Position numbers and translations under genes: made by a program. Source: a bacterium (lineage in GTDB: Bacteria; Hinthialibacterota; Hinthialibacteria; OLB16). Taken from it: a stretch of 48,706 bases of DNA. Under the pieces are notes generated by a model, which made no database searches, had not been told where the DNA came from, and saw only the letters and a list, made by a program, of their open reading frames with translations. The stretch lies in NCBI GenBank assembly GCA_022072055.1, contig JAJVIK010000029.1, positions 1 through 48,706 of the forward strand, read 5' to 3'. Of this stretch, positions 39,111-48,706 are shown in pieces; position 1 is the stretch's first letter, and each line of letters opens with the position of its first letter.

Positions 39111-40047
39111 GACACTATCTCAAAAGGCTGAGCCGATATAGCCGTCGAAACCAGAGCAAGGCACATGCGAGTTGAATCGCCCCGAGAAAGTTTTCGGCTT
39201 TCTTGTTATATCGGACCAGGATCCCACGCCATTTCTGCAGCCATGAGAGTGTTCGCTCCACGACCCAGCGCCTCGCGCGATGACGCTTGCGCTTCCTGGT
39301 GTCGAATTTCTCCTCGCCGATTCGACGAACGTGAGGAGTATATCCGGCCTGTTCGATGGCTGCTTGTCCCCTTGGGTTGTCATAGCCCTTGTCCAGACAC
39401 AGATGTTGCGGCTCCTCCGGCGTGGGTTCCGGACGGCACACAACCACCGCCTCCAACGTTTCCTGGAGCAGTTGCGCGTCGGGCACATTGGCGGCCGCGA
39501 TCACCACGGCCAGCGGTCCCCCATCCTCTTCGACTAAGAGGCTCTTCTTGGTTCCGGGCTTGGCTCGATCCGTCGGATTCGGCCCCTTTTTTCGCCGGGG
39601 AATCGAGCTTTCCCCAGACAGCAGTCCGCCGCCTGCCATTCCAAACTCAGACCCTTCAGTTCGTCACATTCGTTGACCAGCACGGCCCACAAGACCTCGA
39701 ACAGGTCATCTCGACTCCAGCGCTGGAACCAACGATGGACGGAACTGTCATCTCCGAAGATCGACGGCAACTGGTTCCACTGGCAACCACTGCGTGCAAT
39801 GAAAATGATCCCATTGAGGGCCTGACGGAAGTCGATCCGAGGGCGTCCGGTCCTCGCTTTCGGATAGTGTTCATCCAGGATCGGCTTCAAAATCGCCCAA
39901 ACGGTGTCCGGCACCGTCCAGATGGTCTTCAACGGAACGACTTCGACTTTTCTCCTTCGACTCATGATTCTCCCCCTCCTAAAGGCTGTCCCTTGCCTCA
40001 TTTATCGGCACCTCAACAGCACACTGAAGGTGTTTTGAGATGATTTC
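39111..40047 (-). mobile_element. IS5-family insertion sequence (IS427-like), 937 bp
   Basis: The left end GACACTATCTCAAAA (39111-39125) and the right end, reverse complement GAAATCATCTCAAAA (40047-40033), match at 12 of 15 positions. Both ends are flanked by TAA (39108-39110 and 40048-40050), a 3-bp target duplication of the TNA type used by this family. It contains a two-frame transposase on the minus strand. The right end lies only 6 bp before the start codon of the orphan type I-C cas2. Confidence 0.8.
39115..39965 (-). CDS. IS5-family transposase made by programmed -1 frameshift
   Basis: The first frame (39965 to 39534, 143 residues) starts at an ATG with AGGAGGGGGAG upstream. It has the IS5 N-terminal region and SGCQWNQLP, then SLEWQAADCCL with the first catalytic Asp. 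The second frame (to 39115, entered at the overlap) supplies GPNPTDRAKPGTKKSLL, LCLDKGYDNP (second Asp) and RRWVVERTLSWLQKWRGILVRY (catalytic Glu). The frames overlap at a run of six A followed by G on the coding strand (39592-39586), a classic -1 slippage site. The fused protein is about 283 residues. All three DDE residues are present, so the element may be active. The stop codon lies inside the left terminal repeat. Confidence 0.8.
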
Positions 40048-40053
40048 TAAGCC

Positions 40054-40347
40054 GTGATGATGGTCTTGGTCACTTATGACGTGTCCACAGAGACCGCGGA
40101 AGGGAGGCGGCGGCTCGCCCGCGTGGCCAAGGCTTGCGAGGCGCGCGGGCAGCGTGTTCAGAAGTCTGTATTCGAGTGCCTCATCGATCCGGCGATGTGG
40201 GTGAAGCTGAAGTCAGACCTGGAAGGGGAAATTGATCCGAGGACCGACAGCCTCCGGTATTATTTCCTCGGAAACAACTGGAAACGGCGTGTCGAACATG
40301 TGGGCGCGAAGGCGAGTTATGACCCTCAAGGGCCATTGATTGTGTGA
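40054..40347 (+). CDS. cas2: Orphan type I-C Cas2
   Basis: The 97-residue product starts MMVLVTYDVSTETAEGRRRL with Asp8, and contains QRVQKSVFECLI and YYFLGNNWKRRVEHVGAK, a form highly characteristic of subtype I-C Cas2. It ends KASYDPQGPLIV. The sequence around its start (TGATGATGG) is the kind that normally overlaps the cas1 stop, but upstream there is only the IS element; no cas3, cas5, cas8c, cas7, cas4 or cas1 of I-C is present. No ribosome site is visible. The gene lies directly before the I-C-like leader and array, as in intact I-C loci. Confidence 0.9.
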   Translation: MMMVLVTYDVSTETAEGRRRLARVAKACEARGQRVQKSVFECLIDPAMWVKLKSDLEGEIDPRTDSLRYYFLGNNWKRRVEHVGAKASYDPQGPLIV

Positions 40348-40811
<464 letters not shown>

Positions 40812-41021: not shown

Positions 41022-43424
41022 GTGGACAATCGTCTCGAACACATCACCTTGGCTGCGCTTCTTCATGACATCGGTAAAGTCATGCAGAGAGCTGAAGTCC
41101 CCGTGTCGGATCAGACGGAATCGCTCATGGCCTCTGCGGGGCCAACCCGTGATGGGCACTCCTCCCACTACCACGTCAAGTGGACCAGCCAGTTTTTCGA
41201 GGACCACCTCGGAGACTGTGGACTCTTGATCCCGGTATCCCTTGATGAAAGCGCATCTTATCTTGCTTTCCGTCATCACAATCCGGCGACCCCACTTGAG
41301 TACATCGTCAGCGAAGCCGATCGCCTCTCCTCCGGTATGGACCGTGGCGAATCTCACAACGAACGCGACTCGCACAAGAGAAGAAGACTTGTGCCCCTTC
41401 AAGTTCTACTCTCGAGGGAACAGAGCCCGATTTCCCCCTATCCTCAAGTCCCGCTCTGCGAGCTGACATCGAGGGATGCATCTTGCTTTCCAAGACGGGA
41501 TTTCACAGTTGATCAAAGTCTGGTCCCCGATTACCGGAGGATATGGAAACGGTTCCTGGAAGACTGGGACTCGTTCCGCACTTCCGGTCTGGAGGCCACT
41601 TTGGCCCGGCTGGATGCTCTCTACGAAAGGCACTTTTGGTGTGTTCCGGCCAGTTCTGTTGATGAAATCCCAGACACTTCGCTCTACGGCCATTCAAGAA
41701 CGGTTGCAGCGATTGCGGGAGCGTTGTACCTCTATCATCGTGAGCTGGATAACCTGGAGACCGGCACTATACGTGACCGGACCATTCCCAAGTTCCGCTT
41801 GGTGGCGGGGGATTTAGCGGGCATCCAAAGCTACATTTTTGCCATCTCGCATGCAGGCGGGGGCAAGGTGGCGAAACGCCTCAGAGCTCGATCATTCTCT
41901 CTCGGCTGCCTGACCCAGGTCCTCGCTCTTCAGATAGTCCGCGAAGTTGGGCTTCCCTATCTGAACATTATCCTCAGCGCCGGGGGAAAATTCCATCTTC
42001 TGTTGCCGAATACGCCAACGACCAAAACCATCCTGGAGCATCGTGAGGCTCTTTGCCAAAGGTGGTTGCGCGAAGAGTTCCAGGGTTTGGTTTCGCTGAA
42101 CCTGGCTTCTGTTGAGATGAGCGGACAGGATTTTGCCAGCAAGCGTGTCGGCGAAAAGTTCACGGAATTGGCGGGTGAGCTGCTCCGGAAGAAGCATCAG
42201 CCATTGGGCGGCATCCTGAAGAACAAGGAGGGTTGGGTGGAAAACGATTTCCTCCTTCCCTCCGCTATCCACAAGAACGAATCGCCGACGGGCTATTACG
42301 ATGTCGAAGGCCCTCTCGATGAGGAAGCGCTGGGGTCGCAGCTGAGCCGGGCGAAGTGCCTTGCCATCTACGACTCCAAGCGTGGCGAACACAAGGTCTT
42401 TGATTGGTCTTTCTCAATTGCCGAGCATGCGAACCGTCTTCCGCCCGCTGCCGCCTACCTCATTTCGTTTGAGCGCGGCGCTGAAGTGGACTACCACGAA
42501 CCAATGGTTCCGGTCCGCTACGAATACCGTGCTTCGCACGTTCCTTTGTACAGAAGGGGCAAGCATCCGAAATTGGACGAAATCGCTGCAAGGATGTCCG
42601 CCGCGGATACGGAAGATTCCCTTCAAGAGGGTCAGGTCCTCCCCTTCAACGCGATTGCGAAAACCGCCACGGGTCGAGACTCGATTGCTTACCTCAAAGC
42701 CGATGTCGACAACCTCGGCTTCCTGTTCCGACGCGGCCTTGACTGGAATGACGTGGGTTGGACGCTCTCCAAGATGGCCACATTCTCGCGATCCCTCGAA
42801 TTCTTCTTTTCGGGGCGCGTCCACAACATACTGCGCGAGCCCGCGTTTGAGATGATCTACACGGTCTACTCCGGCGGCGATGATGTCTTGCTGGTAGGCC
42901 CCTGGGACGCCATCCACGAGTTTGCCCGAAGGCTTCGGGAGGAATGGTCTGCTTTCACGGCCGCTAATCCTCACCTGACGTTGTCCGTCGGAATTGCTCT
43001 GGCTCGTCCCATGACGCCGGTGTGGGCCGCCGCTGATTCGGCTGAGACAGCCCTGGAACACGCCAAGACCCAGCCCAAGGACCAACTCTGTTCGTTCGGT
43101 CACCTGATCCGATGGGCTCAGGTTCCTCATGTCTTCGCCGAGATCGAGAAGGTCTCAACCTGGCTCAATTCCAAGACCGTCTCCACCGCTTTTGTCAGAA
43201 GCCTTCTCTACTATGCGGATCTCGCCGCTCAATACCGAACTCAAGGAAGAGTCGAAGGCCTCAGATACCTTCCGCTCTTGAGCTACAACCTCTCGCGCAA
43301 TTTGCGGGGAGAGACGGCGTCGGAAGTCCGTCGGTGGGCGGAAGCTCTCAAGGATGTGGAGGGCGATGCTATTCGCAATCTCGGATTTGTGGCGACGTAC
43401 TCACTGAATCTGAATCGCGGGTAG
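41022..43424 (+). CDS. cas10: Cas10/Csm1, large subunit of a type III-A-like CRISPR complex
   Basis: The 800-residue protein starts at GTG 41022, with AGGGTAGG upstream. An N-terminal HD nuclease domain is marked by LAALLHDIGKVMQRAEV (His15, Asp16). A first palm-like region contains LVAGDLAGIQSYIF. The cyclase palm domain carries TVYSGGDDVLLVG, with GGDD at 618-621. Both the single-strand DNase and the cyclic oligoadenylate synthase sites look intact. Upon target RNA binding it would cut DNA and make cyclic oligoadenylate. It is the first gene of the operon, under a consensus promoter. Confidence 0.93.
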   Translation: MDNRLEHITLAALLHDIGKVMQRAEVPVSDQTESLMASAGPTRDGHSSHYHVKWTSQFFEDHLGDCGLLIPVSLDESASYLAFRHHNPATPLEYIVSEADRLSSGMDRGESHNERDSHKRRRLVPLQVLLSREQSPISPYPQVPLCELTSRDASCFPRRDFTVDQSLVPDYRRIWKRFLEDWDSFRTSGLEATLARLDALYERHFWCVPASSVDEIPDTSLYGHSRTVAAIAGALYLYHRELDNLETGTIRDRTIPKFRLVAGDLAGIQSYIFAISHAGGGKVAKRLRARSFSLGCLTQVLALQIVREVGLPYLNIILSAGGKFHLLLPNTPTTKTILEHREALCQRWLREEFQGLVSLNLASVEMSGQDFASKRVGEKFTELAGELLRKKHQPLGGILKNKEGWVENDFLLPSAIHKNESPTGYYDVEGPLDEEALGSQLSRAKCLAIYDSKRGEHKVFDWSFSIAEHANRLPPAAAYLISFERGAEVDYHEPMVPVRYEYRASHVPLYRRGKHPKLDEIAARMSAADTEDSLQEGQVLPFNAIAKTATGRDSIAYLKADVDNLGFLFRRGLDWNDVGWTLSKMATFSRSLEFFFSGRVHNILREPAFEMIYTVYSGGDDVLLVGPWDAIHEFARRLREEWSAFTAANPHLTLSVGIALARPMTPVWAAADSAETALEHAKTQPKDQLCSFGHLIRWAQVPHVFAEIEKVSTWLNSKTVSTAFVRSLLYYADLAAQYRTQGRVEGLRYLPLLSYNLSRNLRGETASEVRRWAEALKDVEGDAIRNLGFVATYSLNLNRG

Positions 43425-43457
43425 CGTGAAATATATCGCGGCAATAAGGAGCAACCA

Positions 43458-44036
43458 ATGAAGAAGAAGTGCATATCCTGTGGCAAGATCTTCGACGCGC
43501 CAAAGGCCACGTATTTCAAATGCCCCGAATGTTACAGCGGAAAGAGTCCCGCAAGTGGAGGAGGGAGTGAAATGAAGAATCCACATGGACCATTCCAAGG
43601 CTCCAAAGGTGGAGGGCCTCGCTCCAACTTCAGCCAGTCAGATAGGCCGGGGGGGCTGCCCAAGGATCTGTGTCTAGATTCCTTCTTTACGCCGGATGGC
43701 GCAATCCGGGAGGAGGTTTACATCAAAACTGCAAAGGGGATTGCCCAGGCGCTTGCAGAGGACACCCCGACGGTGACCACTGCGTCGGTACGCAGATTTT
43801 TTGAATCGGTTAGAGCAGCCTACGATCGCTATCTGCAGGAACGTTCGTACCCAAAGGCCCTCGAGGGAATCTTCAGGCTGCACCCGCTCGCCAAGCGGAG
43901 CCAGGACCGAGGTATTACGAACGCCGCGTTTACGGATTTCATTTTTCACTATGCGAATCTCACGGCCAAGGACGAAAAGAACCTGCGGGGGTTCAAAGAG
44001 CTCTTCATGAGCGTTGTCTGCTATCTGAAGAAATGA
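43458..44036 (+). CDS. csm2: Csm2 small subunit with N-terminal zinc-ribbon-like extension
   Basis: The 192-residue product is longer than the usual 120-150. The first 26 residues contain CISCGKIF...FKCPECY (Cys5, Cys8, Cys22, Cys25), a zinc-ribbon pattern. A Gly/Ser/Pro-rich linker follows to about residue 75. The helical Csm2 domain comes next (SVRRFFESVRAAYDRYLQE ... FTDFIFHYANLTAKDEKNL ... FMSVVCYLKK). Csm2 lines the crRNA-target filament. AAGGAG lies six bases before the ATG. The extension could bind RNA or another protein. Confidence 0.8.
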   Translation: MKKKCISCGKIFDAPKATYFKCPECYSGKSPASGGGSEMKNPHGPFQGSKGGGPRSNFSQSDRPGGLPKDLCLDSFFTPDGAIREEVYIKTAKGIAQALAEDTPTVTTASVRRFFESVRAAYDRYLQERSYPKALEGIFRLHPLAKRSQDRGITNAAFTDFIFHYANLTAKDEKNLRGFKELFMSVVCYLKK

Positions 44037-44051
44037 CAAGGAGGAAGAACG

Positions 44052-44714
44052 ATGAGAAAACTATTGGGACATCGGGTTTTGAGCGGCAAGCTATCTTGCC
44101 TTACGGGCGTGCGAATCGGGGGATCCAAGGAGACCCAGGAGGTCGGAGGAACGGACAACCCGATCCTCCGGCACCCCATCAACCATCTCCCCTACATCCC
44201 CGGCTCTTCACTTAAGGGAAAGATCCGTTCCCTTCTGGAACAAAAGCATCGGGCGGACCGGGTTATGAGAGATGGAAAACCTTGTGATTGTGGAGAGTGC
44301 AAGGTGTGCATCGTTTTTGGTTGCGCTGCTGCAAAGAACACACAGTCAGTTACGCGCTCTATCTTTCGGGACTGCGTGCTAACCGAGGAGTCGCTGGCCC
44401 GTTTGGAAACCGCGAGAGAGGAACTGGGAGTTCCTTATTCCGAGACGAAGACTGAAGTTCTTATCGACCGCCGCAAGGGTCTTTCCCATTCAAATATCGG
44501 CCCCCGGGTCCAGGAGCGCATCCCAGAAGGCACGGAGTTCAAGCTGGAGATTGTACTGAGAGAGTTCGAAGGCGACCCGGTTGACGACTACGTCAAATTC
44601 ATCAAGGAGGGCGTTGCTCTCATGGAAAATGACACCTTGGGGGGGTCGGGCACCCGTGGGTACGGCAAAGTCCGTGTGATCTGGGAGAGTAAAGCCCCAC
44701 AGGAGGCGCATTGA
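44052..44714 (+). CDS. csm3: Csm3, Cas7-family backbone and target-RNA nuclease
   Basis: The 220-residue protein has the Csm3 signatures: GVRIGGSKETQEVGGTDNPI with Asp35, the position of the RNA-cutting Asp in Csm3, and LPYIPGSSLKGKIRSLLE. A Cys-rich CDCGECKVCIVFG segment follows, and near the C terminus comes MENDTLGGSGTRGYGKVRV, the RAMP Gly-rich loop. Several copies would form the crRNA-binding backbone and slice target RNA at 6-nt steps. AAGGAGG precedes the start. It is the only Csm3/Csm5-like subunit in the operon. Its stop overlaps the csm4 start (TGATG). Confidence 0.92.
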   Translation: MRKLLGHRVLSGKLSCLTGVRIGGSKETQEVGGTDNPILRHPINHLPYIPGSSLKGKIRSLLEQKHRADRVMRDGKPCDCGECKVCIVFGCAAAKNTQSVTRSIFRDCVLTEESLARLETAREELGVPYSETKTEVLIDRRKGLSHSNIGPRVQERIPEGTEFKLEIVLREFEGDPVDDYVKFIKEGVALMENDTLGGSGTRGYGKVRVIWESKAPQEAH

Positions 44715-45673
44715 TGCGCATCTGGCGGTTGGTTCTGCGTCCAACCTCGCTTCAGCTCTCCCAATGGCAGGCGGACACCCTGTTCGGCGCTCTCTGCTGG
44801 AAGCTCGCGTTCCGCGAGGGGGAATCCGGGCTCCTTGATTTCCTCGCGCCGTTTTTATCAGGCGACCCGCCTTTTCTCATCTCCGATGGGATTCCGTCGG
44901 GATTTCTCCCTTTGCCCCTGCACTTGAAGGTCACCGAATCTGCACCCGCCCGGACTGTGGAGGATTATCAGAAAGAAAAGCAGCTGAAGAAGATCCGTTT
45001 CATCACCGAAGCGGAATTCGCAAAGGCCTGTAACGGCCAGCGAGTCGGAGTTGACGTCTCAACCAGCCTGAGCAGGTCTGTCTCACAGTTGCACGCCTCT
45101 ATTAACCGTAACACAGGAACCACCACCCGCATGGACGACGAGGGGACGGCGAGCCTCTTCCAGCTTGATGGATGGGTCCCCGAGGGGGAGGGCGGATCCC
45201 TGTCGGTATTCGTCGCGGATCGAACCGGGAAAGAGATTGACCGGGTTCTGGTTCTCCTCCGCGACATGGAGCTCACAGGATTCGGGAAGAAGAAGTCTTC
45301 TGGGATGGGCGCCTTCCAGATCGAGGGAGACCCTGTCGAATGGCGCCCGCCCCAGGTCAGCGGCAGGCCCAACGGTTTTGTTTCGTTTGCCGGCTTCGTC
45401 CCGGCGCAGCGCGATCCCACAGCAGGTTTTTGGAGGCTGCGGGTCAAGCACGCGAAGTTGGGCGAGACTTTCGCCACCGGAGGCAAGCCTTTCAAGACGC
45501 CTTTCATACAGTTCGAGTCCGGCTCCACTTTCTTGACGGGAGACGAGCCCGGCGAGGTCTACGGACGCGTGCTTCGCGGTTTGAGCGAGGAGCATCCGCA
45601 GGTCGTGCAATACGGTTATGCTTTCCCCGTTCCTTTGTGGCTCCCTGATTTGGCGGCCAGACTTGCATCATGA
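44714..45673 (+). CDS. csm4: Csm4, Cas5-family crRNA 5'-handle binding subunit
   Basis: The 319-residue RAMP protein starts MRIWRLVLRPTSLQLSQWQADTLFGALCW, typical of Csm4. LRDMELTGFGKKKSSGMGAF is the Gly-rich RAMP loop, and the C terminus QYGYAFPVPLWLPD is also typical. ATG 44714 is preferred over the TTG three bases upstream because AGGAGG is correctly spaced and homologues start M-R/K. It would hold the 5' tag of the crRNA and contact Cas10. The stop overlaps the cas6 start by four bases. Confidence 0.9.
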   Translation: MRIWRLVLRPTSLQLSQWQADTLFGALCWKLAFREGESGLLDFLAPFLSGDPPFLISDGIPSGFLPLPLHLKVTESAPARTVEDYQKEKQLKKIRFITEAEFAKACNGQRVGVDVSTSLSRSVSQLHASINRNTGTTTRMDDEGTASLFQLDGWVPEGEGGSLSVFVADRTGKEIDRVLVLLRDMELTGFGKKKSSGMGAFQIEGDPVEWRPPQVSGRPNGFVSFAGFVPAQRDPTAGFWRLRVKHAKLGETFATGGKPFKTPFIQFESGSTFLTGDEPGEVYGRVLRGLSEEHPQVVQYGYAFPVPLWLPDLAARLAS

Positions 45674-46644
45674 AGGATTGGCCGGCGCTTGTGCCGGAGG
45701 CGCTGGGGCGCCTCAAGACCCTCCGCGTGAGGTTTGAACTGATCGCGGAGGCGGAAGCGAGGCTGCCCGCGTTCTTGGGGTCGACCTTGCGTGGGGGGCT
45801 GGCGATGGCCTTTCGCAAGATGGTCTGCACTTATGACCTGCGGCCTTGTGATGGCTGTCCGGTTCAGCGCAGTTGTCACTATCCCAACCTCTTTGAGACC
45901 CCCACGGCCACGGGAAAACAGGAAATCCGTCGAATGCGGGACATCCCTCATCCGATAGTGATTGAACCTCCAGCCATGCACTTGGGTCGTTATGCTCCAG
46001 GAGACCTGCTGACATTTGAGGCGGTTCTTCTTGGACGAGGCATCTCGAATTTCCCATATCTTGTCTTTGCCGCCCATGAGATGGCCGCGGGGGGCCTGGG
46101 AGTGGATCGCTGCCCCTTCAGACTCCTTCGGGTCCGGGATCGATACGGGGGGCTCCTGTTTGAAAGCGAGTCCGGGCGGTTGCTCGACACCGGAGGGTGC
46201 TTCACTTTGGGAGATCTGTGGTCATCCAAGCCAATTCCCAGCTCTTGTGAACTCATTCTGGAGACCCCTCTGCGTCTTAAGTTCGAGGGGGAACTGATGA
46301 ACCGGGAACTGGATTTGCGGGAATTTCTGAAGGCCACTTGCCGCCGACTGTGGGCGCTCTGTTCAAGTCATGGTGAAAGGTGCTCGGAGGGGATCGACTT
46401 CCGTCCCTTACTGGAACGCGCTCCCCCGCCCAATGTTCTTTCGTCCAGGTTTGGATGGCGGGATCTGACGCGCTATTCGAACCGCCAGAAGGCCAAGATC
46501 AAAATCAGCGGGACTGTCGGATCCTGTCATCTCGGGGGCGAGCTCGAAGCATGGTGGCCCCTGCTTGTGGGTGCGGAGGAGGTTCATGTTGGGAAGGGGA
46601 CGGTGATGGGATTGGGGAAAGTGAGGCTGAGATCCGATGGCTAG
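45670..46644 (+). CDS. cas6: Cas6, pre-crRNA processing endoribonuclease
   Basis: The 324-residue RAMP protein has LPAFLGSTLRGGLAMAFRKMV, then a four-Cys CDGCPVQRSCHYPNLFETP segment typical of one branch of Cas6 proteins. HPIVIEPP, the FPYLVFAAHEMAAGGLGVDR segment and a C-terminal VHVGKGTVMGLGKVRL Gly-rich loop complete the family pattern. It would cut the 37-nt repeats to leave an 8-nt 5' handle (ATTGAGAC). It occupies the place where csm5 stands in standard III-A operons; I see no Csm5-like sequence in it. It overlaps cas1 by eight bases. Confidence 0.9.
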   Translation: MKDWPALVPEALGRLKTLRVRFELIAEAEARLPAFLGSTLRGGLAMAFRKMVCTYDLRPCDGCPVQRSCHYPNLFETPTATGKQEIRRMRDIPHPIVIEPPAMHLGRYAPGDLLTFEAVLLGRGISNFPYLVFAAHEMAAGGLGVDRCPFRLLRVRDRYGGLLFESESGRLLDTGGCFTLGDLWSSKPIPSSCELILETPLRLKFEGELMNRELDLREFLKATCRRLWALCSSHGERCSEGIDFRPLLERAPPPNVLSSRFGWRDLTRYSNRQKAKIKISGTVGSCHLGGELEAWWPLLVGAEEVHVGKGTVMGLGKVRLRSDG

Positions 46645-47638
46645 CGTGTATGTCACTCGATCGAATGCAGAGGTTTCTCTGGACGGGGGACGTCTCTTGG
46701 TCCACAAGGATGGAGAGCGGTTGTTGGACCTTGCGCTGCGACGCATCTCGAGCGTCGTGTGCTTTGGGTGGACCCATGTTACGACGCCGGCCCTGCATAC
46801 ACTTCTGGAGAATGGGATTGACCTGGCCTACCTTTCGCGTAAGGGGCGTTATCGGGGGCGTCTGACTGCTCCTTGTTCAAAGAACATCTATCTGCGACTT
46901 GCGCAATATGATTCGGCGCGCAACGAGCGCCGTTGTCTTGAACTCGCGAAGCTCATTGTGTCGAGCAAGATCGGCAACAGCCGGAATGTCCTACGAAAAT
47001 TCCAGTACAACCATCCGTCAAAGGAGCTCACCGAGGTCATCCGCAAGTTGGAAAAGCTCGAGAAGTTGGTCCAGGGGACACAAGAGCCTACGCGGCTGCT
47101 GGGACTGGAGGGGGTCTGTTCGCGGCTCTATTTCAGTCTTTTTGATCAGATGCTCCGGTGCGATCTGCGATTCACCCGGCGCTCCACCCGTCCGCCACGC
47201 AATGAGGTGAACGCGTTGCTGTCCTTGACCTACGTGCTGGTCATGAATGAACTGATTTCAATTGTGGAAGGAATGGGTTTTGACCCGTATCTCGGTTTCT
47301 TCCATTCGGTGGGATATGGAAAGCCGTCTCTGGCATTGGACCTGATGGAGCCTTTTCGTTCGGCGTTGTGCGATGTCTTTGTGGTGCGCCTGTGCAATCT
47401 GAAAATCTTGGAGAAGGATGATTTCTCGAGGGCTCCGGAGGATGAGGGATTTCGCTTGACCGAGGAGGGGCTCCGAAAGTATCTTGAGGAGTATGAGCGC
47501 CGCATGGTTCGGGAGTTCAGTCATCCCGTGACTTACAAGCGAGTCACGTGGCGGGATTGTCTTCGCGCGGAGGCGGAGATGGCGCGAAATACCCTGATGA
47601 AGGGGACGGCTTACAGCCCATTTCAGAGCCGTGTCTGA
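46637..47638 (+). CDS. cas1: Cas1 integrase
   Basis: The 333-residue protein has all three metal-binding residues: Glu158 in LLGLEGVCSRLYF, His223 in GFFHSVGYG and Asp235 in LALDLMEPFR. The N-terminal beta domain (MASVYVTRSNAEVSLDGGRL) is typical. With Cas2 it integrates new spacers at the leader end of the array. The start overlaps the cas6 stop. No reverse transcriptase is fused, so uptake of RNA-derived spacers is not expected. Confidence 0.95.
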   Translation: MASVYVTRSNAEVSLDGGRLLVHKDGERLLDLALRRISSVVCFGWTHVTTPALHTLLENGIDLAYLSRKGRYRGRLTAPCSKNIYLRLAQYDSARNERRCLELAKLIVSSKIGNSRNVLRKFQYNHPSKELTEVIRKLEKLEKLVQGTQEPTRLLGLEGVCSRLYFSLFDQMLRCDLRFTRRSTRPPRNEVNALLSLTYVLVMNELISIVEGMGFDPYLGFFHSVGYGKPSLALDLMEPFRSALCDVFVVRLCNLKILEKDDFSRAPEDEGFRLTEEGLRKYLEEYERRMVREFSHPVTYKRVTWRDCLRAEAEMARNTLMKGTAYSPFQSRV

Positions 47639-47711
47639 GGGAGAAGTGGATATCATTGACTGGTTCCTTTTGGAGGAGGGCGATGAGGAATGCGTGGTTT
47701 TCAGGACAGAC

Positions 47712-47990
47712 ATGAGATACCTTGTGGCATATGACGTGGTGGTGGACCGACAGCGGACCAAGGTGGCCAACCTCCTGGAGGAGTATGGGGACCGGATCCA
47801 GAAGAGTGTGTTCGAGTGCTTCCTGAATGAGAGGAGCAAGCAGGAATTGTGGGAGGAAGTCACCTCGCTGATCAATGTGGACGAAGATCGGGTTCGGATG
47901 TACCCTTTGTGCCGGTCGTGCGAGCGGAAAGTGGAGATTGCTGGGGGAGGACCGGTCAGGGTGGACGAGGTGGAGGTTTACATTGTTTGA
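47712..47990 (+). CDS. cas2: Cas2 of the type III operon
   Basis: The 92-residue product begins MRYLVAYDVVVDRQRTKVANLLEEYGDRIQKSVFECFL, with the conserved Asp8 and the ferredoxin-like Cas2 pattern, and has YPLCRSCERKVEIAG near the end. I chose ATG 47712 because Cas2 proteins start at this strand; an in-frame GTG at 47631 would add 27 unrelated residues and overlap cas1. It differs clearly from the I-C type Cas2 at 40054, so the window has two unrelated adaptation-gene sets. It is followed by the leader. Confidence 0.93.
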   Translation: MRYLVAYDVVVDRQRTKVANLLEEYGDRIQKSVFECFLNERSKQELWEEVTSLINVDEDRVRMYPLCRSCERKVEIAGGGPVRVDEVEVYIV

Positions 47991-48183: not shown

Positions 48184-48706
48184 GTTGAGAGGATTGCCCC
48201 GTTGATGAGGGGATTGAGACCTCGGGAAGGGTGAAAACCTTCCCGGCATCGGCAACCGCGGCAGTTGAGAGGATTGCCCCGTTGATGAGGGGATTGAGAC
48301 TCAGGGCTTGAGGGCTTAATCAAAAAGATACAGCCTTCAAGTTGAGAGGATTGCCCCGTTGATGAGGGGATTGAGACGATTTCCTGGTTTCGCGTACCTT
48401 GACACCTGACAAGTCAAACATGTTGAGAGGATTGCCCCGTTGATGAGGGGATTGAGACCCGATCGCGGCGACTGCAGTTGAGCGCAGACTGTTTTGCGAG
48501 TTGAGAGGATTGCCCCGTTGATGAGGGGATTGAGACCTTCGCTTGCAGGGCTGGATTGGCCAGAATGGCGGAGATGATTTGTTGAGAGGATTGCCCCGTT
48601 GATGAGGGGATTGAGACGGTGACGCGCCTCGTCACAGGAGCCTCCCAGCTCGAACCTGTTGAGAGGATTGCCCCGTTGATGAGGGGATTGAGACGAGGTC
48701 TGCGTC
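48184..48706 (+). CRISPR. Type III-associated CRISPR array, 7 repeats in window, continues beyond end
   Basis: Identical 37-nt repeats lie at 48184-48220, 48264-48300, 48341-48377, 48422-48458, 48500-48536, 48581-48617 and 48658-48694. Each begins GTTGAGAGGATTGCCCC and ends GGGGATTGAGAC, with a CCCC/GGGG stem around gttgatga. Spacers are 40-44 nt (43, 40, 44, 41, 44, 40), the long, variable kind usual for type III. A further spacer starts at 48695 and runs off the window. The last eight bases, ATTGAGAC, would be the crRNA handle. Confidence 0.97.

Follow-up and report, generated by a model that had tools for sequence, protein, structure and literature searches.

A type III-A-like CRISPR-Cas operon without csm5 and the csm5-less lineage to which it appears to belong

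The stretch of DNA analysed here (the window, 48,706 nucleotides) is an entire contig, C23, that ends inside a CRISPR array. Upstream of the array lies an operon whose genes, each identified with profile libraries, run cas10-csm2-csm3-csm4-cas6-cas1-cas2 (Table 1), the order that an earlier note had read from the sequence. The short overlaps between neighbouring genes described there are also present, with 4 bases at csm3/csm4 (1 base if csm4 begins at the ATG at 44714), 4 bases at csm4/cas6 and 8 bases at cas6/cas1. Since csm4 ends at 45673 and cas6 starts at 45670, there is indeed no room between them for a deleted csm5. All reading frames of the operon are open. The HD motif (LHDIGK) and GGDD motif of Cas10 and the catalytic aspartate of Csm3 are kept, as had been claimed. 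Among solved Csm4 structures, the one closest to the window protein is from S. marcescens. The PADLOC profiles for Csm4 and Cas6 already fit the window proteins well, indicating that single genes from such loci have been clustered previously.

Table 1. Genes and features of the csm5-less operon, its CRISPR array and the effector gene past the array
Feature	Position	Strand	Length	Remarks
cas10/csm1	41022..43424	+	800 aa	TIGR02578, 541.8 bits (cut-off 170); HD (LHDIGK) and GGDD intact
csm2 (Cas11)	43458..44036	+	192 aa	PF03750, 25.2 bits (cut-off 24.8)
csm3 (Cas7)	44052..44714	+	220 aa	TIGR02582, 198 bits; catalytic Asp D35
csm4 (Cas5)	44711..45673	+	320 aa	TIGR01903, 91.2 bits (cut-off 55); PADLOC Csm4, 211 bits
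cas6	45670..46644	+	324 aa	PADLOC Cas6, 271 bits; directly 3' of csm4
cas1	46637..47638	+		Profile libraries
cas2	47631..47990	+		Profile libraries; real start probably ATG at 47712
CRISPR array	48184..48694	+		7 repeats of 37 nt in the window; spacers 40-44 nt
CARF-HEPN effector gene	L054:1013-2290 on contig C19		425 aa	Csx1/Csm6 kind; 60 bases past the last repeat

Another contig of the same genome (C19) starts with 13 more identical repeats in the same orientation, giving 20 identical repeats in total. From the shared repeat and its orientation we infer that C23 and C19 are joined. The CARF-HEPN gene of C19 has a homologue adjoining the equivalent operon in a related genome (G006). With the join so inferred, this gene provides the cOA-dependent CARF effector of a III-A system, and the system in the window would possess the usual cyclic oligoadenylate output arm, yet without csm5. 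The effector on the next contig was absent from the earlier note, as were the zinc-ribbon tail of Csm2 and the four-cysteine motif of Csm3 described below.

The absence of csm5 holds across the whole genome, whose assembly is 96.6% complete. A genome-wide search with the Csm5 profile TIGR01899 gave nothing over the cut-off of 38.3, the best match being the glycine-rich stretch of csm3 at 20 bits. The RAMP profile PF03787 matched a single protein in the genome, Csm3, and the same search of csm5-bearing genomes as a control yielded both Csm3 and Csm5. One RAMP protein each was likewise found in three further genomes (G001, G015, and G1078). There is one Cas10 in the genome. The earlier note had named a csm5 just outside the window, or elsewhere in the genome, as what would overturn its claim; none was found, and a csm5 beyond the far side of the array is excluded because the CARF-HEPN gene stands there. 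It had also raised a possible Csm5 fold in the protein encoded at 45670. The AlphaFold2 model of this protein (mean pLDDT 88.6) is a Cas6, with all of its 36 best fold matches in the PDB being Cas6 structures. A csm5 fused into or hidden within Csm4 or Cas6 is excluded by the profiles, and for Cas6 also by the fold.

We inspected related genomes for the same gene order. The small phylum of the window was sampled through 14 genomes, two of which carry a related Csm4 (58% and 40% identity) within a cas10-csm2-csm3-csm4-cas6 operon without csm5, while the sequence of a third Csm4 relative ends within csm4. Genome contigs gave no matches to a single-protein Csm4 search, whereas a search with a Csm4 alignment (A1) found further relatives; the alignment search of viral contigs found none. 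We then scanned about 1,470 genomes in four more phyla and read some 75 loci in full, annotating them with purpose-built profiles that included a Csm5 profile grown from the Csm5 of Thermus thermophilus HB8. This gave 22 loci labelled csm5-less, the window included, and inspection added L028 and L152 for a total of 24, so that csm5 is missing from 23 loci besides the window. For one of them (L014), whose sequence stops 256 bases past csm4, the csm5-less state comes from the genome search and the position in the tree. About 48 loci bear csm5. In the scanned genomes, the Csm4 profile scored at least 240 bits in csm5-less loci and less than 200 bits in the others, with the exception of L152, which scored 90.8 bits yet has no csm5. 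Two candidates were rejected: L154 has an intact csm5, and in L035 the first part of a csm5 is recognizable, with its frame disrupted.

Six-frame searches of the csm5-less loci for csm5, with filters off, gave cross-matches to csm3 and chance hits only. In whole-genome searches with TIGR01899, none of the 22 csm5-less genomes had a match over the cut-off, compared with four of four csm5-bearing controls. By record title, the members belong to the phylum of the window, Armatimonadota (Chthonomonadales), Chloroflexi, Deltaproteobacteria/Geobacter, Omnitrophota, and Planctomycetota, about six phyla by those titles. These sequence comparisons indicate that the absence of csm5 is a state shared by a lineage and not an oddity of a single operon or a local deletion. 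We propose that the lineage be recognized by the lack of csm5, a Csm4 that groups in the tree with those of csm5-less loci, a CxC..CxxC motif in Csm3, and a long N-terminal tail on Csm2. All four are found in the window.

A Csm5 is a member of a fast-evolving family. A very diverged, unrecognised Csm5-like protein might therefore work from another site in the genome, and the incompleteness of the assembly (96.6%) and the additional type III RAMP genes of some related genomes (G006, G019, and G750) would allow this. One genome (G020) has a second locus, at a contig end, with a partial csm5-like match. Such extra RAMP genes could act in trans in the genomes that have them. However, trans supply of another RAMP is excluded for the genome of the window, though not for all member genomes, as the PF03787 search leaves one RAMP protein in it and in G001, G015, and G1078 where controls show two. 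With the absence repeated in 22 genomes, we regard a hidden Csm5 as very unlikely.

The earlier note had stated that cas6 occupies the position of csm5. This is true of the window and of two other genomes (G006 and G001), where cas6 lies directly 3' of csm4 and overlaps it, but it does not extend to most members, in which the content of the slot varies. Three loci (L013, L020, and L133) have a cas6 of another family after csm4, and in most other members the slot holds CARF effectors of varied kinds (HEPN, PD-DExK, or RelE-like). Because the slot holds such varied genes, Cas6 is excluded as a general replacement for Csm5. In the window itself, Cas6 might still hold on to the crRNA's 3' stem-loop once it has cut, and so form the head of the complex, as it does in type I Cascade. 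The adjoining cas6 is consistent with this arrangement, and the 4-bp stem of the repeat would remain at the crRNA 3' end. However, the repeat stems are weak (z-scores of −1.3 to −1.9), many members have their cas6 upstream of cas10 or belonging to other Cas6 families, and csm5-bearing loci have a Cas6 of the same family as csm5-less loci. A Cas6 head is thus improbable in our view. The idea that losing csm5 shortened the spacers was rejected, as their median length is 39.0 nt in csm5-less loci and 39.2 nt in csm5-bearing loci.

The Csm2 proteins of the two groups of loci differ in their N-terminal tails, with a median length of 62 aa in csm5-less loci versus 11 aa in csm5-bearing loci. A zinc-ribbon motif is present in this tail in 13 of 21 csm5-less proteins and in none of 45 csm5-bearing ones; in the other eight csm5-less members the tail has no ribbon. 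In the window the ribbon is CISCGKIFDAPKATYFKCPEC (residues 5-25). The modelled protein has an ordered ribbon (residues 1-30), a disordered linker to about residue 62, and then the helical Csm2 core. Its identity as Csm2 is supported by a profile match to Csm2 in the PDB (E 3.4e-21), and Csm2 chains also make up its 13 best fold matches, although none of them passes E 0.001. Csm3 also carries a distinctive feature, a CxC-x(1-8)-CxxC motif before the FG turn, which 21 of 21 csm5-less loci have, against 7 of the 48 others; the window has CDCGECKVC at residues 78-86. Because the loci are related, the Csm2 tail and the Csm3 motif are markers of the lineage and not independent proof of compensation.

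The Csm2 tails may nevertheless stand in for Csm5, either by binding the crRNA in its 3' part or by recruiting nucleases at the open end of the filament. In favour are the distribution of the ribbon, its ordered fold on a flexible linker, and the arrangement in L. lactis, where the Csm2 ridge is headed by the helical domain of Csm5 (PMC8964682). On the other hand, the tail lacks the ribbon in eight of 21 members, the correlation may reflect shared descent, the match of the ribbon to zinc-ribbon RNA-binding models is weak, and any ligand is putative. We consider this takeover possible but unlikely. A bolder form of the idea, to which we give somewhat less credence, is that the job of the Csm5 head passed to the zinc ribbons in an open-ended complex with a single kind of Cas7 that is predicted to be fully active as RNase, DNase, and cOA synthase. 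Perhaps the tails help to hold RNA, although this is conjecture.

The missing subunit is integral to the III-A complexes that have been studied, and its absence could mean that the locus is decaying and has lost interference. The conservation of the active sites speaks against this. The GGDD motif of Cas10 is present in 20 of 20 csm5-less rows, indicating that the systems are under selection, and the csm5-less state occurs in several phyla. In the window the frames are open, the active-site motifs are kept, and cas1 and cas2 accompany the array, whose identical repeats number 20 together with those on C19. We therefore judge decay to be most improbable. The HD motif of Cas10 was found in 11 of 20 csm5-less rows, some of which are cut short. 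The Csm3 aspartate aligns with glutamate in 5 of 21 csm5-less loci, so RNA cleavage may not be lineage-wide. Such partial conservation suggests that not every member keeps every activity, and the window keeps all three motifs.

On a Csm4 tree, the csm5-less loci fall to one side, and the csm5 state requires one change among rows of known state. A concatenated tree of Cas10, Csm3, and Csm4 requires two changes and places 42 of 43 csm5-bearing rows in one group (SH-aLRT 98). The remaining row, L033, is a long branch inside the csm5-less group, and its gene order is odd, with csm5 between csm3 and csm4. The tree of Cas10 alone requires four changes, through long-branched csm5-bearing rows. On the basis of these trees we take the absence of csm5 as the trait of one lineage. 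Rooting with Cmr2 was distrusted because this outgroup is too distant (branch of 5.5 changes per column), and the pattern may reflect either loss in the lineage or gain on the other side. The poorly rooted Cas10 tree allows the csm5-less systems to branch near the root; in that case the lineage could preserve an early stage of III-A instead of a reduced derivative.

The absence of csm5 points most naturally to a reduced complex. We estimate a probability of roughly three in four that the operon encodes a working Cas10-Csm complex without the Csm5 head, whose filament would end in Csm3. This is the likeliest reading given the gene content and a precedent in S. epidermidis, where deletion of csm5 abolishes crRNA 3' maturation while the remaining complex still forms (PMC9762709). 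Cas6 would cut the pre-crRNA inside the repeat and leave an 8-nt 5' tag, and the crRNA would serve as the assembly site for Cas10, Csm4, and the filament of Csm3 and Csm2, with Csm3 as the last subunit where no Csm5 head is present. Binding of target RNA would then bring about cleavage by Csm3 and the HD and GGDD activities of Cas10, and the resulting cyclic oligoadenylate would activate the CARF-HEPN RNase encoded just past the array. The Csm5 of S. epidermidis either brings in PNPase and RNase R or stimulates them (PMC9762709), and that of S. marcescens caps the Csm3 filament and binds the 3' end of the crRNA (PMC13060164). In the window's system no Csm5 would attract host exonucleases, so the 3' end of the crRNA probably stays long or is shortened no further than the last Csm3. 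The authors of the S. epidermidis study considered crRNA maturation itself to be likely of nominal value (PMC9762709). The zinc-ribbon tail of Csm2, which is typical of the lineage, may have a role in RNA binding or in stabilising the open end.

A literature search that covered few subscription journals gave no account of a III-A lineage without csm5, and none of a Csm2 with a zinc ribbon. Csm5 is regarded as a core subunit of III-A systems, with roles in capping the filament, in binding the 3' end of the crRNA, and in the recruitment of host nucleases. A naturally occurring lineage across several phyla that lacks it and can keep every catalytic part, as the window does, offers a direct test of its purpose, and could show how a Csm3 filament ends and what fixes the length of the crRNA. 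A four-protein Cas10 complex could also serve as a simpler tool for RNA detection. In addition, annotation rules that require csm5 may label such loci as incomplete.

Compared with canonical III-A systems (Thermus thermophilus HB8, S. epidermidis, and S. marcescens), the window likewise has a Cas10/Csm1 with HD and GGDD, Csm2-4, Cas6, and a CARF-HEPN effector, and spacers of about 39 nt are common to canonical arrays and the csm5-less lineage. It differs in having no Csm5 and in the zinc-ribbon tail of its Csm2. The complexes from the S. epidermidis csm5 deletion are also Cas10-Csm without Csm5, and they reportedly form with immature crRNAs (PMC9762709); however, the deletion is a laboratory mutant of a system with Csm5, whereas the state in the window is natural and lineage-wide. 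III-A2 is another III-A derivative missing one standard subunit, with an active Cas10 and the conserved Cas7 aspartate, but the subunit it lacks is Cas11 (PMC12669027). The window has Cas11 (Csm2) and lacks Csm5, and is excluded from III-A2 by the presence of csm2. III-H has been modelled with a single kind of Cas7 in the complex (PMC12669027), as we propose for the window. Its cyclase is inactivated and it has neither conserved Cas7 aspartates nor signalling genes, all of which the window has; the intact GGDD excludes the window from III-H. The gene set also resembles that of type I Cascade in its one kind of Cas7 backbone with Cas5 and Cas6, but the window has the Cas10 cyclase and the type III effector arm, with no Cas3 or Cas8. 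Since each III-A gene for which the window was tested (Csm1-type Cas10, Csm2, Csm3, and Csm4) is present except Csm5, we file the system, on its gene content, as a III-A-like variant.

The orphan cas2 and its short array lie immediately upstream of the III-A operon of the window. The array has three repeats of the sequence GATGGTCGCCCCCCGCGTGGGGGTGTGGATTGAAAC, which differs from the repeat of the III-A array, and the pair is apparently the leftover of a second CRISPR system. The orphan cas2 is adjoined by the transposase-like gene. This gene may have caused the loss of what else belonged to the second system. The window, contig C23, and C19, another contig of the same genome, likely join.

Features noted in the window, on contig C19 and in the compared type III loci (L-numbers)
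Feature	Position	Strand	Context or basis
Transposase-like gene, split over two overlapping frames	window 39115-40001	minus	by eye
Orphan cas2, type I-C-like, and its short array	window 40054-40347 and 40531-40697		cas2: PADLOC Cas2c, 141 bits
Probable continuation of the window's CRISPR array, and CARF-HEPN effector	L054:4-2290 = C19:4-2290		
TIR-like gene	L013:6036-6812		by eye; directly after cas6; Chloroflexi-titled csm5-less locus
TIR-like gene	L020:10541-11326		by eye; one gene further on from cas6; Chloroflexi-titled csm5-less locus
csm5 between csm3 and csm4	L033:6073-8984		Methylomirabilis-titled locus

In the aligned Csm3 motif of the csm5-less loci L126, L134, and L017, the catalytic Asp is replaced by Glu. 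This replacement may alter or abolish target RNA cleavage in such loci. L033 is the sole csm5-bearing row within the csm5-less group, and its placement reflects either a regain of csm5 or a long-branch artefact.
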